Shown here: positions 1,092 to 31,553 of the stretch, piece after piece | Numbering within the stretch: the first letter of the stretch is position 1 | Layout: every line of letters begins with the position of its first letter | IMG/VR virus record: IMGVR_UViG_3300023083_000007 | Span: 1-40,271 of that record | Direction: 5' to 3' (one strand) | Length of the DNA stretch: 40,271 bases | Source: a virus | Made by a program: the position numbers and the translations under genes | The notes under the pieces: model-generated | Database searches by the model: none | The model's input: the letters and a program-made list of their open reading frames with translations, nothing else | What the model was told of the DNA's origin: nothing

Positions 1092-1958
1092 TTATCTTAA
1101 TAAATAATCCGCTAAATCCAGTCCATTTTTCCTGTCTTCTGCTGTAGCTAACTTTTCTATGTGATCAGAAATATTAAACCCAAATTCTGCAGCTTTTATT
1201 TTCCACTCTTTATAAGCACCTAAATCAGGGAATAGTGTAACTGATCTATTTTCCAAAACTTTGCATTTGTAATCAGCTAAGCCGCCTTTTTGACCGCAAC
1301 TAATCCAGATGTACTTATCAATAAAACAGCTCGCTATAATAGCTGTCTTTTCGCTTTCTACAATTGCAACCGGCATTGTTGGCTCTACTGTTAAAAGATG
1401 CTCACCAAAAAAGCATTGTTTTAAATTAAAATCCGGATAAGATGGTTTACCAAATATTCGCCTGGAATGTTCCCATGTTGTAGCTGAATCTTTATCCCTG
1501 TGCCCATCTTGTTTATATCTCAGGAACTTACCAGACCTGCAAAACCCTTTACTATCTACTTGCCAATAAATACACCAATCGTTTAATATACCTACGTTGT
1601 AAAGCCTAAATCTATTTTCTATTTCTGCAGCGTCAAATTTCTGAGATAAGAACTTAACAAGAGCATTGTTTTGATACCCTTGAAGACTAGGTATTACAAT
1701 TGAAGCATCGATGTAAGAAGTTGGTTTCTCTACTATTTCTCTTTTTTCAAATACCCAATTAGGATCCGGATTTTCTTTATTGTAACCATCATGATAAGGG
1801 CTGAGGAAATAAGTGCAGTTATCCTCTCTATCGCAACGGCCGTATTTATCAGGCAAATAATTGCCTTCCTGATCTATGAATCTTACAAATGTCTTTTTAT
1901 GACACATCGGGCAAATTGATTTTTTCTTTGCTTTTTCTAAGTTGAATCTATGTACCAT
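1092..1958 (-). CDS. Toprim primase-like protein (DUF6371-like) with zinc-binding N-terminus
   Basis: This 288-aa protein resembles primase/toprim proteins of Bacteroidota phages and mobile elements. The N-terminus has paired cysteines (CPMC near 16-19 and CDREDNC near 42-48), probably a zinc ribbon as in DnaG primases. A toprim-like segment follows: the conserved Glu in VESEKTA near 201-207, then a Gly-rich turn and FPDLG near 244. By family analogy it makes RNA primers or acts with a helicase to do so. It lies downstream of the RepA-like ATPase at 2331, separated by the repeat-rich interval, and its ATG overlaps the stop of the 1958-2320 frame (TAATG). Primase activity is inferred from the family. 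Confidence 0.75.
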   Translation of the reverse strand: MVHRFNLEKAKKKSICPMCHKKTFVRFIDQEGNYLPDKYGRCDREDNCTYFLSPYHDGYNKENPDPNWVFEKREIVEKPTSYIDASIVIPSLQGYQNNALVKFLSQKFDAAEIENRFRLYNVGILNDWCIYWQVDSKGFCRSGKFLRYKQDGHRDKDSATTWEHSRRIFGKPSYPDFNLKQCFFGEHLLTVEPTMPVAIVESEKTAIIASCFIDKYIWISCGQKGGLADYKCKVLENRSVTLFPDLGAYKEWKIKAAEFGFNISDHIEKLATAEDRKNGLDLADYLLR

Positions 1959-2320
1959 TATTTGACGGTTTTAAGGTTTAGAACAACAAGTTCGGTATAG
2001 GCACCCTTTATATATAAGGGTGCCCCTATACTATACCAAACATTTGAACGTCTGGTATACCCTTTGGTATGGGCATACTGTACCGGTAGAAATGCCTTTA
2101 AAGGCCGTTTTTTGGCAATGTTTAGAACAACTAATTTTAGTTGCCTATACCAAAGGTTCAGTATAGGTAGCCCATTCCAATCTTTTAGGTACTTAAAGAC
2201 GGTTTTTATACCGAAAACGATTTTGGTATAGTTGATTTTAATGTCTTTTATAAAAAAAATATGTGTTTTAATCCCGTTTTCATTTATAAGTGTCTGATTA
2301 TTAAATTTATAATAGGCCAT
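1958..2320 (-). CDS. Doubtful 120-aa frame over the repeat region
   Basis: An open frame begins at ATG 2320, 10 bp after the helicase stop, and ends by TAATG overlap with the primase start. Both arrangements are typical of coupled genes in this genome, which argues that it is translated. Against this, the interval is dominated by short repeats and a long hairpin, and the protein is low in acidic residues and itself repetitive (LVVLN occurs twice, mirroring a duplicated DNA segment). No domain was recognised. It may be a real small protein laid over a cis-acting region, or an open frame kept by chance. Confidence 0.35.
   Translation of the reverse strand: MAYYKFNNQTLINENGIKTHIFFIKDIKINYTKIVFGIKTVFKYLKDWNGLPILNLWYRQLKLVVLNIAKKRPLKAFLPVQYAHTKGYTRRSNVWYSIGAPLYIKGAYTELVVLNLKTVK
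1991..2231. repeat. Iteron-like array of TTTGGTATAG in both orientations
   Basis: The 10-mer TTTGGTATAG or its reverse complement occurs exactly at 2031-2040 (reverse), 2145-2154 (reverse) and 2222-2231 (forward). Near copies with one or two differences are at 1991-2000, 2051-2060, 2063-2072 and 2157-2166, and a weaker one (reverse) spans about 2206-2215. Some eight copies within 240 bp, between a RepA-like ATPase and a primase gene, look like initiator or regulator binding sites. Spacing is irregular, so this is not a classical equally phased iteron set. Confidence 0.6.
1995..2031. other. Long imperfect palindrome / hairpin in the repeat region
   Basis: The arms GGCACCCTT (2000-2008) and AAGGGTGCC (2016-2024) are perfectly complementary around a 7-base TATATAT loop. 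After a 2-nt bulge the stem continues with GTATA (1995-1999) against TATAC (2027-2031). The outer arms are themselves parts of the repeated 10-mer. No T-run follows on either strand, so it is unlikely to be a simple terminator. It could be a cruciform or unwinding element at an origin, or an RNA hairpin that affects primase expression. Confidence 0.6.
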
Positions 2321-2330
2321 ACTAAAGGTT

Positions 2331-3377
2331 TTACTTTAATTGATAAAATGTTTTATTGCTCTTTTTTTCTGACTTCTCTAAATATCCGTTTTGGGTATAC
2401 CAGGATATAAAAGTCTTGATTTTAACAACGCCCATAGTTGTTCCATACCCTGCAAATGCTGCAGCTAAATCATTCTGCAGATCAGAATAACTCATTTGTT
2501 CAATTCCTTTAAAAGTTATCTGCAATATTTCGTTATGTGTTTCCTTAGCTATGTCAACAGGTGTTGTTTTCCGGCTGTTACTTTCTCCAGAATCTATACG
2601 AGGCTTCACGGTAACTAAAATTGGGATACCATATGAATCTCGGTCAAAGGCAAATACTTCAAATGGCTTCCCGCGGGTAAACTCTGGCTCGCATACGGTA
2701 TAGTTATCTTCGCTTTTAGACACTTTTATAACTGTCTCTGCCTTATTTACAAGTTCACTACCTAAGTGACCTCTTGCGTGATCAGATCCTTTGTTCTGAT
2801 GAATAATAGAGAGTACATGACAATCGTAAACATCAGCCCAACGCATGAGGTCGCCAGTAATATTTGTGGCTTCTTCAGGGCTATTTATGTCAAACACCAA
2901 ATCTCTTATTCCATCTAAAATGACTATATCCGGCTTATAAGATAATAATAGATGTTCAACTATCTTAATCCTCACTGTTGGATTATAGATTTTTAGGTCA
3001 TAGAAGTTTAAGTATGGTGATTTAGGTGTTCCGGCGATAGACAAAACCCAATATTGGGTACGGGATCCATAATACAAACCCTGCTCTGTGTCAATCCATA
3101 ATACATTTAACTGGTTATTTATTGTTTGTGCTGTAATCCATGCCGTTACGGTTGTTTTACCGACTTTAGCTGGCCCTTTCAATACAGACAAAGATTTTTT
3201 AGTAAATAAAGGGATACCGTTTAAAGCAAATATCAATTCCGGTTCAGGAATAATTACGCCTTGTGGTATATGTGATTCTTCTGCTAACTCAGCTATTGTT
3301 TTAGTGGGTTCAGGCGCATCATTACTGATCTGGCTAGCTAAGTTTAATGCTATATTATTTTCATTCATAATTAGCAT
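2331..3377 (-). CDS. RepA-like AAA ATPase / putative replicative helicase
   Basis: This 348-aa protein is a RecA-fold ATPase of the RepA/DnaB-like type found in plasmids and phages. Walker A is GPAKVGKTT at about residues 68-76; Walker B is the hydrophobic strand ending in LD near 154-155; a sensor-like SIIHQNK lies near 190-196, followed by an RGHLGSE segment typical of these helicases. The C-terminal 80 residues look like a small winged or helical accessory domain. It would unwind DNA ahead of synthesis, probably with the toprim primase at 1092. The first ATG (3377) overlaps the HNH gene stop; a second ATG at 3368 lies just after that stop and is an equally good start. Confidence 0.8.
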   Translation of the reverse strand: MLIMNENNIALNLASQISNDAPEPTKTIAELAEESHIPQGVIIPEPELIFALNGIPLFTKKSLSVLKGPAKVGKTTVTAWITAQTINNQLNVLWIDTEQGLYYGSRTQYWVLSIAGTPKSPYLNFYDLKIYNPTVRIKIVEHLLLSYKPDIVILDGIRDLVFDINSPEEATNITGDLMRWADVYDCHVLSIIHQNKGSDHARGHLGSELVNKAETVIKVSKSEDNYTVCEPEFTRGKPFEVFAFDRDSYGIPILVTVKPRIDSGESNSRKTTPVDIAKETHNEILQITFKGIEQMSYSDLQNDLAAAFAGYGTTMGVVKIKTFISWYTQNGYLEKSEKKSNKTFYQLK

Positions 3378-3863: not shown

Positions 3864-4028
3864 TTATTTCTTTGTTGATTTATCCACAAAAGACTTACCA
3901 AGGAACGTTACCTGTCTGATCTTGCCCTCTTTTATCCAGTTATAAACCGATTGCCGACTTACGCACTCTTGTTTAGCATAATTTTCAACTGTCACCAAAT
4001 TAATTGGGTTTATTTTTTCTTTTTCCAT
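3864..4028 (-). CDS. Short HTH protein, excisionase/MerR-like
   Basis: A 54-aa protein whose central part (about residues 12-45) has the pattern of the excisionase/MerR-type helix-turn-helix (HTH_17): VTVENYAK, then SRQSVYNWI and KIRQV. Such proteins act as excisionases (Xis) or small regulators. No integrase accompanies it, so a regulatory role is more likely. The start (ATG 4028-4026) is set by a promoter-like TATATTTG only 3 nt upstream, with TTG 20 nt further up, predicting a leaderless mRNA. It is separated from the upstream gene by a terminator hairpin at 4074-4101. Confidence 0.75.
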   Translation of the reverse strand: MEKEKINPINLVTVENYAKQECVSRQSVYNWIKEGKIRQVTFLGKSFVDKSTKK

Positions 4029-6350: not shown

Positions 6351-7018
6351 GATTGTGAGATTAAAAATTCAACTGACTGTTTTGCTATGGCTTCGGCTAT
6401 TCCTTTGTATGTTTTACTTCTTAGTTCTGCTCTGTTTTTACTAGGTGGTAATAAGTGTAACGCTTGAACTCTACCTTCTACTATCTTTGTAGATTTAACA
6501 TTTGGAAACCCTTTATTCCATAAGCACGTAGCTTTTGTTTCTCCATGTCCAAACATCCAGGGTTGCAATACCTGATCTGGCTTTCTGAAACGGCTACTCA
6601 TGACGCATATTGGATTTTCTATTCTAATGTATGGTATGTCACAATTATAAAGATTCATAAAGAACTTAATAGCCTTCTCTCTGGCCTCTCTACGCCGGGC
6701 CCCAACTAATGTACCTGATTTTCTTTCTGGCTGATCTTTATACCATTTGTTGGCTGAAACAGTAAGATACGTACAATCAGGGTGAAACACAGCGGCGTTC
6801 CATTCTGGTATAATTACTTTACTTCCATCCTGAGTTTCAATATAAATGCTTCCAATTGCTTCAAACACATCCCCTTGTATATGCCATTCTGGATGCCCAC
6901 CGCTGCAAGGCTTAAGATCACAACTAAATGCGTTAACGCCTAACCTTCTAAGTTCAATAGTGATAGCCTGGCTTTCTTCGCAACCCACTAAGAAGTATAT
7001 GTCTTCTGGTCTTTCCAT
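6344..7018 (-). CDS. Phage cytosine-C5 DNA methyltransferase-like protein
   Basis: This 224-aa protein fits a phage family usually labelled DNA cytosine methyltransferase. An N-terminal SAM-fold segment VGCEESQAIT...D (11-34) is followed by FHPDCTYLT (78-86) in the place of the catalytic Pro-Pro-Cys loop, then IENPICVMSS (133-142) in the place of the ENPxG motif, and PDQVLQPWMFGHGETKATCLW (147-167) typical of the family. The Pro before the Cys is Asp and the first Pro is His, so activity is uncertain, although Cys82 is present. A working enzyme would modify phage DNA against host restriction. It overlaps its neighbours by TAATG and 7 bp. Confidence 0.65.
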   Translation of the reverse strand: MERPEDIYFLVGCEESQAITIELRRLGVNAFSCDLKPCSGGHPEWHIQGDVFEAIGSIYIETQDGSKVIIPEWNAAVFHPDCTYLTVSANKWYKDQPERKSGTLVGARRREAREKAIKFFMNLYNCDIPYIRIENPICVMSSRFRKPDQVLQPWMFGHGETKATCLWNKGFPNVKSTKIVEGRVQALHLLPPSKNRAELRSKTYKGIAEAIAKQSVEFLISQSC

Positions 7019-29381: not shown

Positions 29382-31553
29382 TTAGGCTATGTTTACTTGT
29401 ACTTTTATCACCTGTGAAGCTGGATCAATTGCGCCTGTACTAATATTTGTAGCCCTAACTACTATTGTATCATCAGCACTTACATAAGCTGAATAGGTTA
29501 TACCTGCTGTCGGAGTTAAAGGTGTGGCAGTTGCGTTCATTCCAGCTTTTGCCCCATAACATAGAGCTGTGGCAGAATCCAAGAATGAATCAGCAGCGAT
29601 AGAAGCAAAATCTATAGTTAACGACCTCGATACAAATCCTTTTAATGCTTGCGTAATTACCTTTGAAGTAAGTAAGTGCCCTGCATCATTTAAGTGTAGC
29701 GTATCTGCCAAGTACGAATTTGGTGCACCCGTATCAACCATTGGACTGTATGTATCAACGAATAGAACATTTTTGTTTTTTGCGGCAAGTGCTGCTCTTG
29801 CTATATAAGCTAACTGTTTAGTCGTATTTCGGCCATCATTCGCATATGGAGGCGATAAAACCACCACCCTTGAACCAGCGTTTAAATAACCCTGAATAAC
29901 CGCCTCCAGTTGCACTCCATAATCAGAAATGATAGTCGCATCCCCGTTAGTAGTCGCATCCGCAATGCCCTCGTCATTAGTCCCCGACATTATGAACTGA
30001 ACATGGGCAAATAAGGCTAATATAGAATCTGAATACCGCTGAACTAATCCTGCTCCAAAATTACCTTGCTGTCTTGTTTGCGTCCCAGGAGCACCTATGT
30101 TGACCTCAACAGCCCCCATTTCTACACTTGTTAAGTAGCTAAACCTTTTTAATGGCGTAGTAGCTCCTTGTCCAGTGGGAATTGAATCACCTCCCCATCT
30201 GTAAATTGTCCCGTCTAACTTTACTCTACCCACTTTTTGGTATAGCCTATACAATGATTTAGATAAACTAGAAGACTGCGCTTTAGTCATTCCTGATGTA
30301 ACAATGAAACAACCAATATTCCCTGTTGCGTAACTAGCATTGGTGTTAATTGTATCCTTAAATATGGTAAGTTCTGTGTCTATAGATCCCGCAGTAATAG
30401 GAAGTATTGTGGTGTTATCAATAACTAATGCCCCATTAATATACGATTGGTATGTGGTTAAGGAAGACACATTGAACATCCTAAAACCCTTGCCCCCTAT
30501 TGATGTAGTCCCCATATATCTACCCCGAAAACTAACATCCTGAGCAGGATTTAGCACGTATATGTTTGGCAGTCCTGTAGTGGGGTTGTCCCCAAACAAA
30601 TGCCCTGCACCCCCATAATTATCCGCAACAAGGTAGGCTAATCCGAAATTCCCAGAATTTAACCCTTGAACTGATGGAATAATCCCTGTTCTAATTTGCT
30701 TCGCAACTGTCGTATTGTTCACGTTAACATAAAAACCGATACCTTTTACGTAGTCTGTTTCAGCTAGACCTACATTTATCATTGAGGGGACACCTCCTGT
30801 CTCAATTATCAATTTGACTAACGCGCCCGCCAAATTATTGCCTAACATTGGCGCAAACCCTTTGATAAAAGAAAAGGTACCTTCTGATTTAGTTTCAACA
30901 ATAAAATCATCAATAGCGTTAACGTGCAACGTAGGTATTGTTGAATTTACAGCTATTATGTTTTTAACGTAAGCATAAGTTTCTGCTTGTAAAACAGATG
31001 CGCTTAAAATAGCAGCATCCGTAGTAGCTTTATTAGCATTATATACCGACTGATCAACCTTTAAGGCAATAGCAGCGTCTGTATTCGTTTTATTCGTAGT
31101 GTAAGTAGTAGTATCTACCTTACTCGAAATAGCCGTATTATAAGCCGAAACGAACGTATCATATACCGATTGTGCTACCTTACTTGCAACCGCGCTGTTA
31201 TTTGACGCTACGTATGCGTTATAAGCCGTTTGCAGGTTATTGAAGTCGGTTTGGCTTGCTTTACCTGCCAATGCGCTGATAATGGCCGTCAAGTCCTGAT
31301 CTCCGGTATTTACGCCAGAAATGTCACTAATGCCCAACTTCAGTAAAATGCTTTCCCTCGTTTCAGAACCTCCACCGCCTCCACCAGAAGCATCAATCAA
31401 GGCTTGTACCTGTGCTGCATTTAGCTTTGTACTCATGGTAGATATCAACTCTGCTATTGACAGCGCTGAATTATCCCCCTGTACGCCTATTGTATTGATG
31501 ATTGCTACCATTTGAGCAACAGTCATGCCGTTAGTTACTGGTGTATTCGCCAT
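29382..31553 (-). CDS. Tail fibre with coiled coils and SGNH esterase domain
   Basis: The 723-aa protein begins with a conserved fibre segment, a poly-Gly linker (57-62) and SGVNTGDQDLT (79-89), then coiled-coil-like repeats built on SKVDxxxYxT (about 95-190). A beta region (200-440) leads to an SGNH hydrolase (about 445-640): GDS with Ser457, SGTND (523-527), and DTLH giving Asp617 and His620. A C-terminal beta domain (645-723) may bind sugar or close the trimer. It probably deacylates surface glycan on adsorption. Unusually, it sits within the head module, with its own promoter and flanking terminators. Confidence 0.85.
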   Translation of the reverse strand: MANTPVTNGMTVAQMVAIINTIGVQGDNSALSIAELISTMSTKLNAAQVQALIDASGGGGGGSETRESILLKLGISDISGVNTGDQDLTAIISALAGKASQTDFNNLQTAYNAYVASNNSAVASKVAQSVYDTFVSAYNTAISSKVDTTTYTTNKTNTDAAIALKVDQSVYNANKATTDAAILSASVLQAETYAYVKNIIAVNSTIPTLHVNAIDDFIVETKSEGTFSFIKGFAPMLGNNLAGALVKLIIETGGVPSMINVGLAETDYVKGIGFYVNVNNTTVAKQIRTGIIPSVQGLNSGNFGLAYLVADNYGGAGHLFGDNPTTGLPNIYVLNPAQDVSFRGRYMGTTSIGGKGFRMFNVSSLTTYQSYINGALVIDNTTILPITAGSIDTELTIFKDTINTNASYATGNIGCFIVTSGMTKAQSSSLSKSLYRLYQKVGRVKLDGTIYRWGGDSIPTGQGATTPLKRFSYLTSVEMGAVEVNIGAPGTQTRQQGNFGAGLVQRYSDSILALFAHVQFIMSGTNDEGIADATTNGDATIISDYGVQLEAVIQGYLNAGSRVVVLSPPYANDGRNTTKQLAYIARAALAAKNKNVLFVDTYSPMVDTGAPNSYLADTLHLNDAGHLLTSKVITQALKGFVSRSLTIDFASIAADSFLDSATALCYGAKAGMNATATPLTPTAGITYSAYVSADDTIVVRATNISTGAIDPASQVIKVQVNIA

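Follow-up and report, generated by a model that had tools for sequence, protein, structure and literature searches.

The helicases SaPI Rep and SCCmec Cch2 have a helicase core of the AAA+ type. The repeats on which each of them acts lie immediately downstream of the helicase gene itself, and the C-terminal domains are implicated in binding (PMC7581432, citing Ubeda et al. 2007). In pRN1, a stem-loop downstream of the replication gene is required, works when moved, and is kept in structure over sequence (PMC4234260). For RSF1010 (IncQ), the same source describes RepA, a primase, iterons, ssi hairpins and a separate iteron-binding protein, RepC (PMC4234260). The replication of excised integrative mobilizable elements (IMEs) has, according to a review, never been studied (PMC5704250), and the cargo listed for NBU2 consists of lnu(AN2) and mef(En2).

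The locus described here lies in a virus record of IMG/VR that is 40,271 bases long, the whole of which we call the window. Its genes for terminase, portal and major head proteins show that it is a tailed phage; a search for phage integrase domains gave no match. Between its repA gene and its primase gene lies a block of repeats and palindromes (1973-2326, on neither strand in particular) that is a candidate replication origin.

A cluster of two-way repeats between repA and a primase gene

The RepA-like ATPase (AAA_25) is encoded at 2331-3377 on the minus strand and combines a RecA-fold core with a predicted C-terminal winged helix (residues 268-348, encoded at 2334-2576). On the same strand, the gene at 1092-1958 encodes a primase-like protein in which a domain search found a zinc ribbon and DUF6371; in annotated relatives the gene in this position is named 'toprim domain-containing'. 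The preliminary description of this DNA had placed its repeats between a RepA-like ATPase and a primase, and these assignments agree with it. The block sits downstream of repA, not before it, and inside the repA-primase operon.

Exact copies of the repeat TTTGGTATAG stand at 2031-2040 (-), 2145-2154 (-) and 2222-2231 (+), and copies with one mismatch at 1991-2000 (+) and 2063-2072 (+). Copies with two mismatches lie in or beside the block at 2026-2035, 2051-2060 (+), 2157-2166 (+), 2206-2215 (-) and 2317-2326 (-); the copy at 2051-2060 overlaps the palindrome GGTATACC (2054-2061), and the one at 2317-2326 marks the block edge. Both orientations are represented and the spacing is irregular. Reading along the operon strand and allowing two mismatches, one finds CTATACCAAA nine times in the gap, five times in one orientation and four in the opposite one. 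The repeats first reported for 1991-2231, three exact and several near copies in both orientations, are real. The block as a whole is larger (about 1973-2326); it includes a palindrome at 2000-2024 and is crossed by an open frame, both of which the preliminary description had overlooked.

Outside the block, the record contains a single exact copy of TTTGGTATAG (30236-30245) and only one copy with one mismatch. At up to two mismatches, 10 matches fall within about 336 bp, compared with 74 in the remaining 39.9 kb or so. The count for the whole window at up to one mismatch is unremarkable (7 found, 4.2 expected, reached by 8 of 100 shuffles); the exceptional feature of the repeat is its clustering. 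When every 280-bp stretch of the record was scored for 8-mers repeated on either strand, 1961-2240 ranked first with a score of 30, the next cluster scoring 10 and the mean being 1.9 (sd 2.2). The 7-mer repeat score of the gap was 50, against a mean of 10.7 and a maximum of 23 in 100 dinucleotide shuffles. The 10-mer, whose frequency in the rest of the record the preliminary description had left to be counted, is thus not equally frequent elsewhere.

Besides the iterons, the block contains a second direct repeat of 20 nt, AAGGTTTAGAACAACAAGTT, at 1973-1992 and 2117-2136 (85%). About 1.6 kb from the repeat block, TTATCCACA at 3880-3888 (+) is a perfect DnaA-box consensus, possibly by chance; it lies near a short HTH-like frame upstream of an HNH gene.

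Palindromes within the block

The palindrome GGCACCCTTTATATATAAGGGTGCC at 2000-2024 has a TATATA core with G/C clamps and counterparts in relatives. It is flanked on both sides by repeat copies, with those at 1991-2000 and 2031-2040 as its opposite outer arms. Two short palindromes, GCCTTTAAAGGC (2094-2105) and CAACTAATTTTAGTTG (2128-2143), are also found in the block. Within the window the score of the palindrome at 2000-2024 was not significant (15 of 100 shuffles), and it matters because relatives share the plan. GC skew tracked gene direction only and was uninformative on an origin.

Repeats and palindromes in relatives

In L001, the nearest relative, whose RepA is 65-66% and whose primase is 57% identical, the same gap contains four copies of CCATACCAAAGG and the palindrome GGTACACCCTTATATATATAAAGGGTGTACC, and L016 (RepA 58%) has CATACCAGAC repeats around CCCCCTTTATATAAGGGGG. 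RepA-profile searches yielded 27 loci from 400 Sphingobacteriales genomes and 8 further loci from 395 Bacteroidota genomes, and plasmid and IME records were also searched for RepA relatives. In viral contigs, a single RepA sequence used as query found no match and an alignment was needed. Relatives of the primase (L002-L005 and L018) were tried as comparators and set aside, being distant and having a different gene upstream.

At every RepA-profile locus except three (L023, L024 and L025), short two-way repeats follow directly after RepA. These blocks usually include an A/T palindrome with G/C clamps, the outer arms of which are similar to the repeat; only a weak palindrome was seen in L065, L081, L082 and L031. 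The repeat is specific to the lineage (TTAACCCATG, TTGAACCATGA, TAACAAACCG, TTGACCCACC, TAAACCAGTA, ACTAAACTAAACC, AACTGTCCTGA and others), and it was two-way in all 22 of the lineages tabulated, several loci being near-identical copies. The downstream gene varies among relatives while the block accompanies RepA, a constancy that is partly by construction because all relatives were found through RepA. What is conserved is the plan of two-way repeats, usually with a palindrome, and not the sequence itself.

The palindrome pattern, searched at up to two mismatches, gave one site each in G000 and G001; in two Arcticibacter genomes it was found at the RepA locus together with a few weaker sites. 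When viral contigs were scanned for the palindrome as a DNA pattern, the L001 record was the only true relative recovered.

To assess these features across lineages, repeat and palindrome scores were compared with those of shuffled sequences. For 20 of 25 blocks, none of 100 shuffles reached the repeat score, and for the other five it was reached by 1, 2, 6, 7 and 10 of 100. The palindrome score alone was modest in several blocks; an ungapped palindrome score by itself is a weak discriminator in AT-rich DNA. We also compared the arms of each palindrome with their own partners and with the partners from other lineages, with the same freedom to shift the register, by three bases at most, for every pairing. 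Own partners matched at 0.69 and those of other lineages at 0.50 (0 of 2000 permutations), and with clamp and core excluded the outer arms still gave 0.63 and 0.49 (0 of 2000 permutations). The arm boundaries were picked by eye from printed sequences, and this may bias the comparison towards matching. Paired arms change together between lineages.

Blocks displaced from RepA

In four phages (L051, L052, L053 and G003, the first three being the 20-kb contexts of L023, L024 and L025), the gap after RepA is short or free of repeats. The strongest repeat cluster in each of them lies 2-5 kb further on and has the same plan, for example with GTGTTAATAAGCCCCTATAAGGGGGCTTTTAACTTAACAC in G003 and TTTAGTTTAACACCCCCTTATATAGTAAGGGGTGTATTAAACC in L052. 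These blocks away from RepA were missed by the palindrome scan and detected by the repeat-cluster scan. In L051 and L052 the block comes after one gene, the L051 copy of which weakly matches VRR-NUC, and shortly before the terminase genes. The position relative to genes therefore differs while the plan is kept, as expected of a cis-acting DNA locus. Conservation of the repeats in related phages, a check suggested in the preliminary description, is found in this form: RepA relatives carry the cluster at the same place or, in these four, a few kb away. At 1141-1420, L052 also has clustered repeats of the TTCGTAATTACGAA type ahead of a small gene; these repeats are probably operators of a repressor.

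Phages and mobilizable islands carry the block

The carriers of the block are Bacteroidota phages, prophages and IMEs, an example of the last being L062, which has an integrase, MobC and a relaxase. Islands of Bacteroides and Parabacteroides carry two repeat/palindrome units in tandem. In the NBU2-like element L083, two repeat/TATATA units at 6476-6598 lie between RepA and a toprim gene. The L065 and L083 records (NZ_OY725932.1 and NZ_OY725908.1) are Bacteroides 'plasmid' records with chromosome-like genes (dnaK, mutS-like) beside the IME, and may be pieces of chromosome labelled as plasmids. In the IMEs, a second strong palindrome precedes the RepA stop codon by about 1.47 kb (L034 833-880, L039 835-878, L043 952-992 and L046 956-987); its sequences differ, and it is possibly a terminator of the upstream gene.

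We then considered which function could be common to all of these carriers. Neither a relaxase (PF03432) nor a protelomerase (PF16684) was found in four phage records, and therefore oriT and telomere sites are unlikely to be that function; on this ground we rejected both an oriT, though IMEs such as L062 have a relaxase, and a protelomerase (telRL) site. IMEs need no packaging site, so packaging is also unlikely to be what the carriers share. The best reading of the comparison is that the common function would be replication by RepA.

RepA as the candidate initiator

The model of RepA (pLDDT 74.5) has a RecA-fold core, which matched RadA with a VIA Z of 20.6, DnaB-type helicases with about 19 and RSF1010 RepA with 18.6 (structures 1olo and 1g8y, Z 18.6 and 18.5). 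When the C-terminal domain was modelled alone (pLDDT 83), it matched almost exclusively winged helices, including Fur, MarR-like proteins, ORC, MukF and cullin WHB; these matches are low-scoring, the best reaching a VIA Z of 8.7 and a Foldseek E of 3e-3. The models suggest that RepA itself may bind the repeats via its predicted C-terminal winged helix.

A probable origin of replication and its alternatives

Relatives of this helicase in phages and in mobile islands share the plan, and the block is therefore probably a replication start site. We consider it likely that the block at 1973-2326 acts in cis as the replication origin of the phage and belongs to a RepA-primase module that Bacteroidota phages share with IMEs. 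The candidate origin of the preliminary description is supported by the comparison and, on sequence evidence, remains a candidate. We infer RepA binding, melting, priming and origin activity in the following order. RepA, a RecA-fold ring helicase, would use its C-terminal winged helix to bind the short two-way repeats; its binding on both flanks of the G/C-clamped TATATA palindrome would open the palindrome; RepA would then load onto the exposed strands, and the neighbouring primase would synthesise the first primers.

Many of the same features would be expected of an operator of repA that has been conserved together with the gene. The block could be an operator or copy-control site at which RepA or a small HTH protein represses or tunes the repA-primase operon, or pairs origins as plasmid iterons do, and not a start of replication. 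We regard this as unlikely. The position inside the operon would suit it, as would the short HTH genes that precede repA in some relatives. However, position is the sole positive support for promoter control, since a promoter scan was not above chance (1 match, 3.5 expected); the block is downstream of repA and can be 2-5 kb away after another gene, the downstream gene varies, and up to ten two-way copies around an A/T palindrome exceed what an operator needs. The regulatory role that the preliminary description gave as its alternative is weakened accordingly, as the block follows RepA while the gene after it changes, and its position is not confined to the RepA-primase junction; the lack of a terminator-like site and of a consistent RNA-strand preference weakens it further. 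There is a slim chance that the block is a site for partition, recombination or packaging instead of an origin. A palindrome flanked by repeats would suit a protein that binds as a dimer, and the blocks of L051 and L052 lie close to terminase genes. Against this, virion-less IMEs carry the same plan beside RepA, four phage records have neither relaxase nor protelomerase, and in most lineages the block and repA remain together.

The messenger and the protein that could be read from this DNA provide two further explanations, each of which we consider very improbable. The region folds strongly compared with shuffles (z -4.95 as RNA, minus strand), which would be consistent with an attenuator or other structured RNA in the messenger of repA and the primase gene, but folding as DNA is equally strong (-5.2, plus strand), and neither strand was consistently better when both were compared across 17 regions. 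We gave an RNA hairpin low weight because of this lack of a consistent strand preference. An Rfam search of the region found no match, an intrinsic terminator was rejected as no G/C-rich stem followed by a T run is present in 1700-2600, the block lies elsewhere in four phages, and the variation of the gene after it argues against a primase attenuator. The repeats might otherwise belong to a small repetitive protein, as a 120-aa open frame of doubtful coding status crosses the block (1958-2320, minus strand). None of 1000 shuffles has so long an open run, the TAA of the frame overlaps the primase ATG (TAATG) as in coupled genes, and a comparable gap-filling frame is present in L001, where 2 of 1000 shuffles reached it. 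On the other hand, the L016 gap has no such frame, the L001 repeats (positions 51, 87, 145 and 220) are split over two reading frames, and Pfam and PHROG searches with the frame at 1958-2320 found no match. Translational coupling may be what keeps the frame open; this does not fully account for how far its length exceeds chance.

Returning to the replication origin, we lean towards a broader interpretation with some reserve: that these loci form an apparently undescribed, widespread class of Bacteroidota origins, in which lineage-specific two-way iterons around a G/C-clamped TATATA palindrome are recognised by a RecA-fold winged-helix helicase, and which is common to phages and IMEs, including an NBU2-like member that would replicate after excision. 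A search of open-access papers found no published description of this element, and this absence is weak evidence of novelty. If the interpretation is correct, a recognisable replication origin would be available for a set of phages and mobilizable elements of Bacteroidota, the replication of excised NBU-like elements, some of them with resistance genes, would become directly testable, and candidate origins would be at hand for vectors in Bacteroidota. It would also mean that a helicase of the DnaB/RepA type can locate its own origin, which is better known of initiators of the SaPI Rep kind.

Comparison with known systems

The element resembles the origins of SaPI/SCCmec, pRN1 and RSF1010 and, by the features tested, fits none of them; its mode of action would be like that of the SaPI and pRN1 origins. 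It is like the SaPI and SCCmec elements in being a mobile-element module with short iterons directly downstream of a helicase gene; their helicases have a C-terminal DNA-binding domain, for which the counterpart here is a predicted winged helix (RepA 268-348). Unlike theirs, the helicase has a RecA-fold core (AAA_25, DnaB/RepA-like), and its two-way repeats surround a G/C-clamped TATATA palindrome. The preliminary description had likened the locus to the classical iteron layout. This holds for the several short repeat copies beside an initiator gene, as at the iteron origins of Rep_3 plasmids, but not for their arrangement, since the copies run in both orientations at irregular spacing, and Rep_3 (PF01051) had no match in the window record or in three relatives.

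With pRN1 and BIP-1 (PMC4234260) the element shares a structure downstream of the replication gene that is kept while the sequence varies, here seen in arms that match their own partners and in repeats that differ, and a winged-helix domain in the replication protein, here predicted in RepA. In contrast to the fused primase-helicase and the one long stem-loop (about 100 bp) of pRN1 (PMC4234260), there are separate helicase and primase genes and many repeats around a short palindrome. The oriV of RSF1010 is similar in having a RecA-fold RepA helicase, a dedicated primase, and iterons with hairpins; it differs in that RSF1010 has a separate RepC while RepA itself carries the predicted winged helix here, and in that the palindrome of our element lies inside the repeat cluster. 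Finally, the NBU2-like L083 is like NBU2 in its cargo, lnu(AN2) and mef(En2), and has RepA, two repeat units and a toprim gene, so that a member of the 'nonreplicating Bacteroides units' carries a candidate origin.
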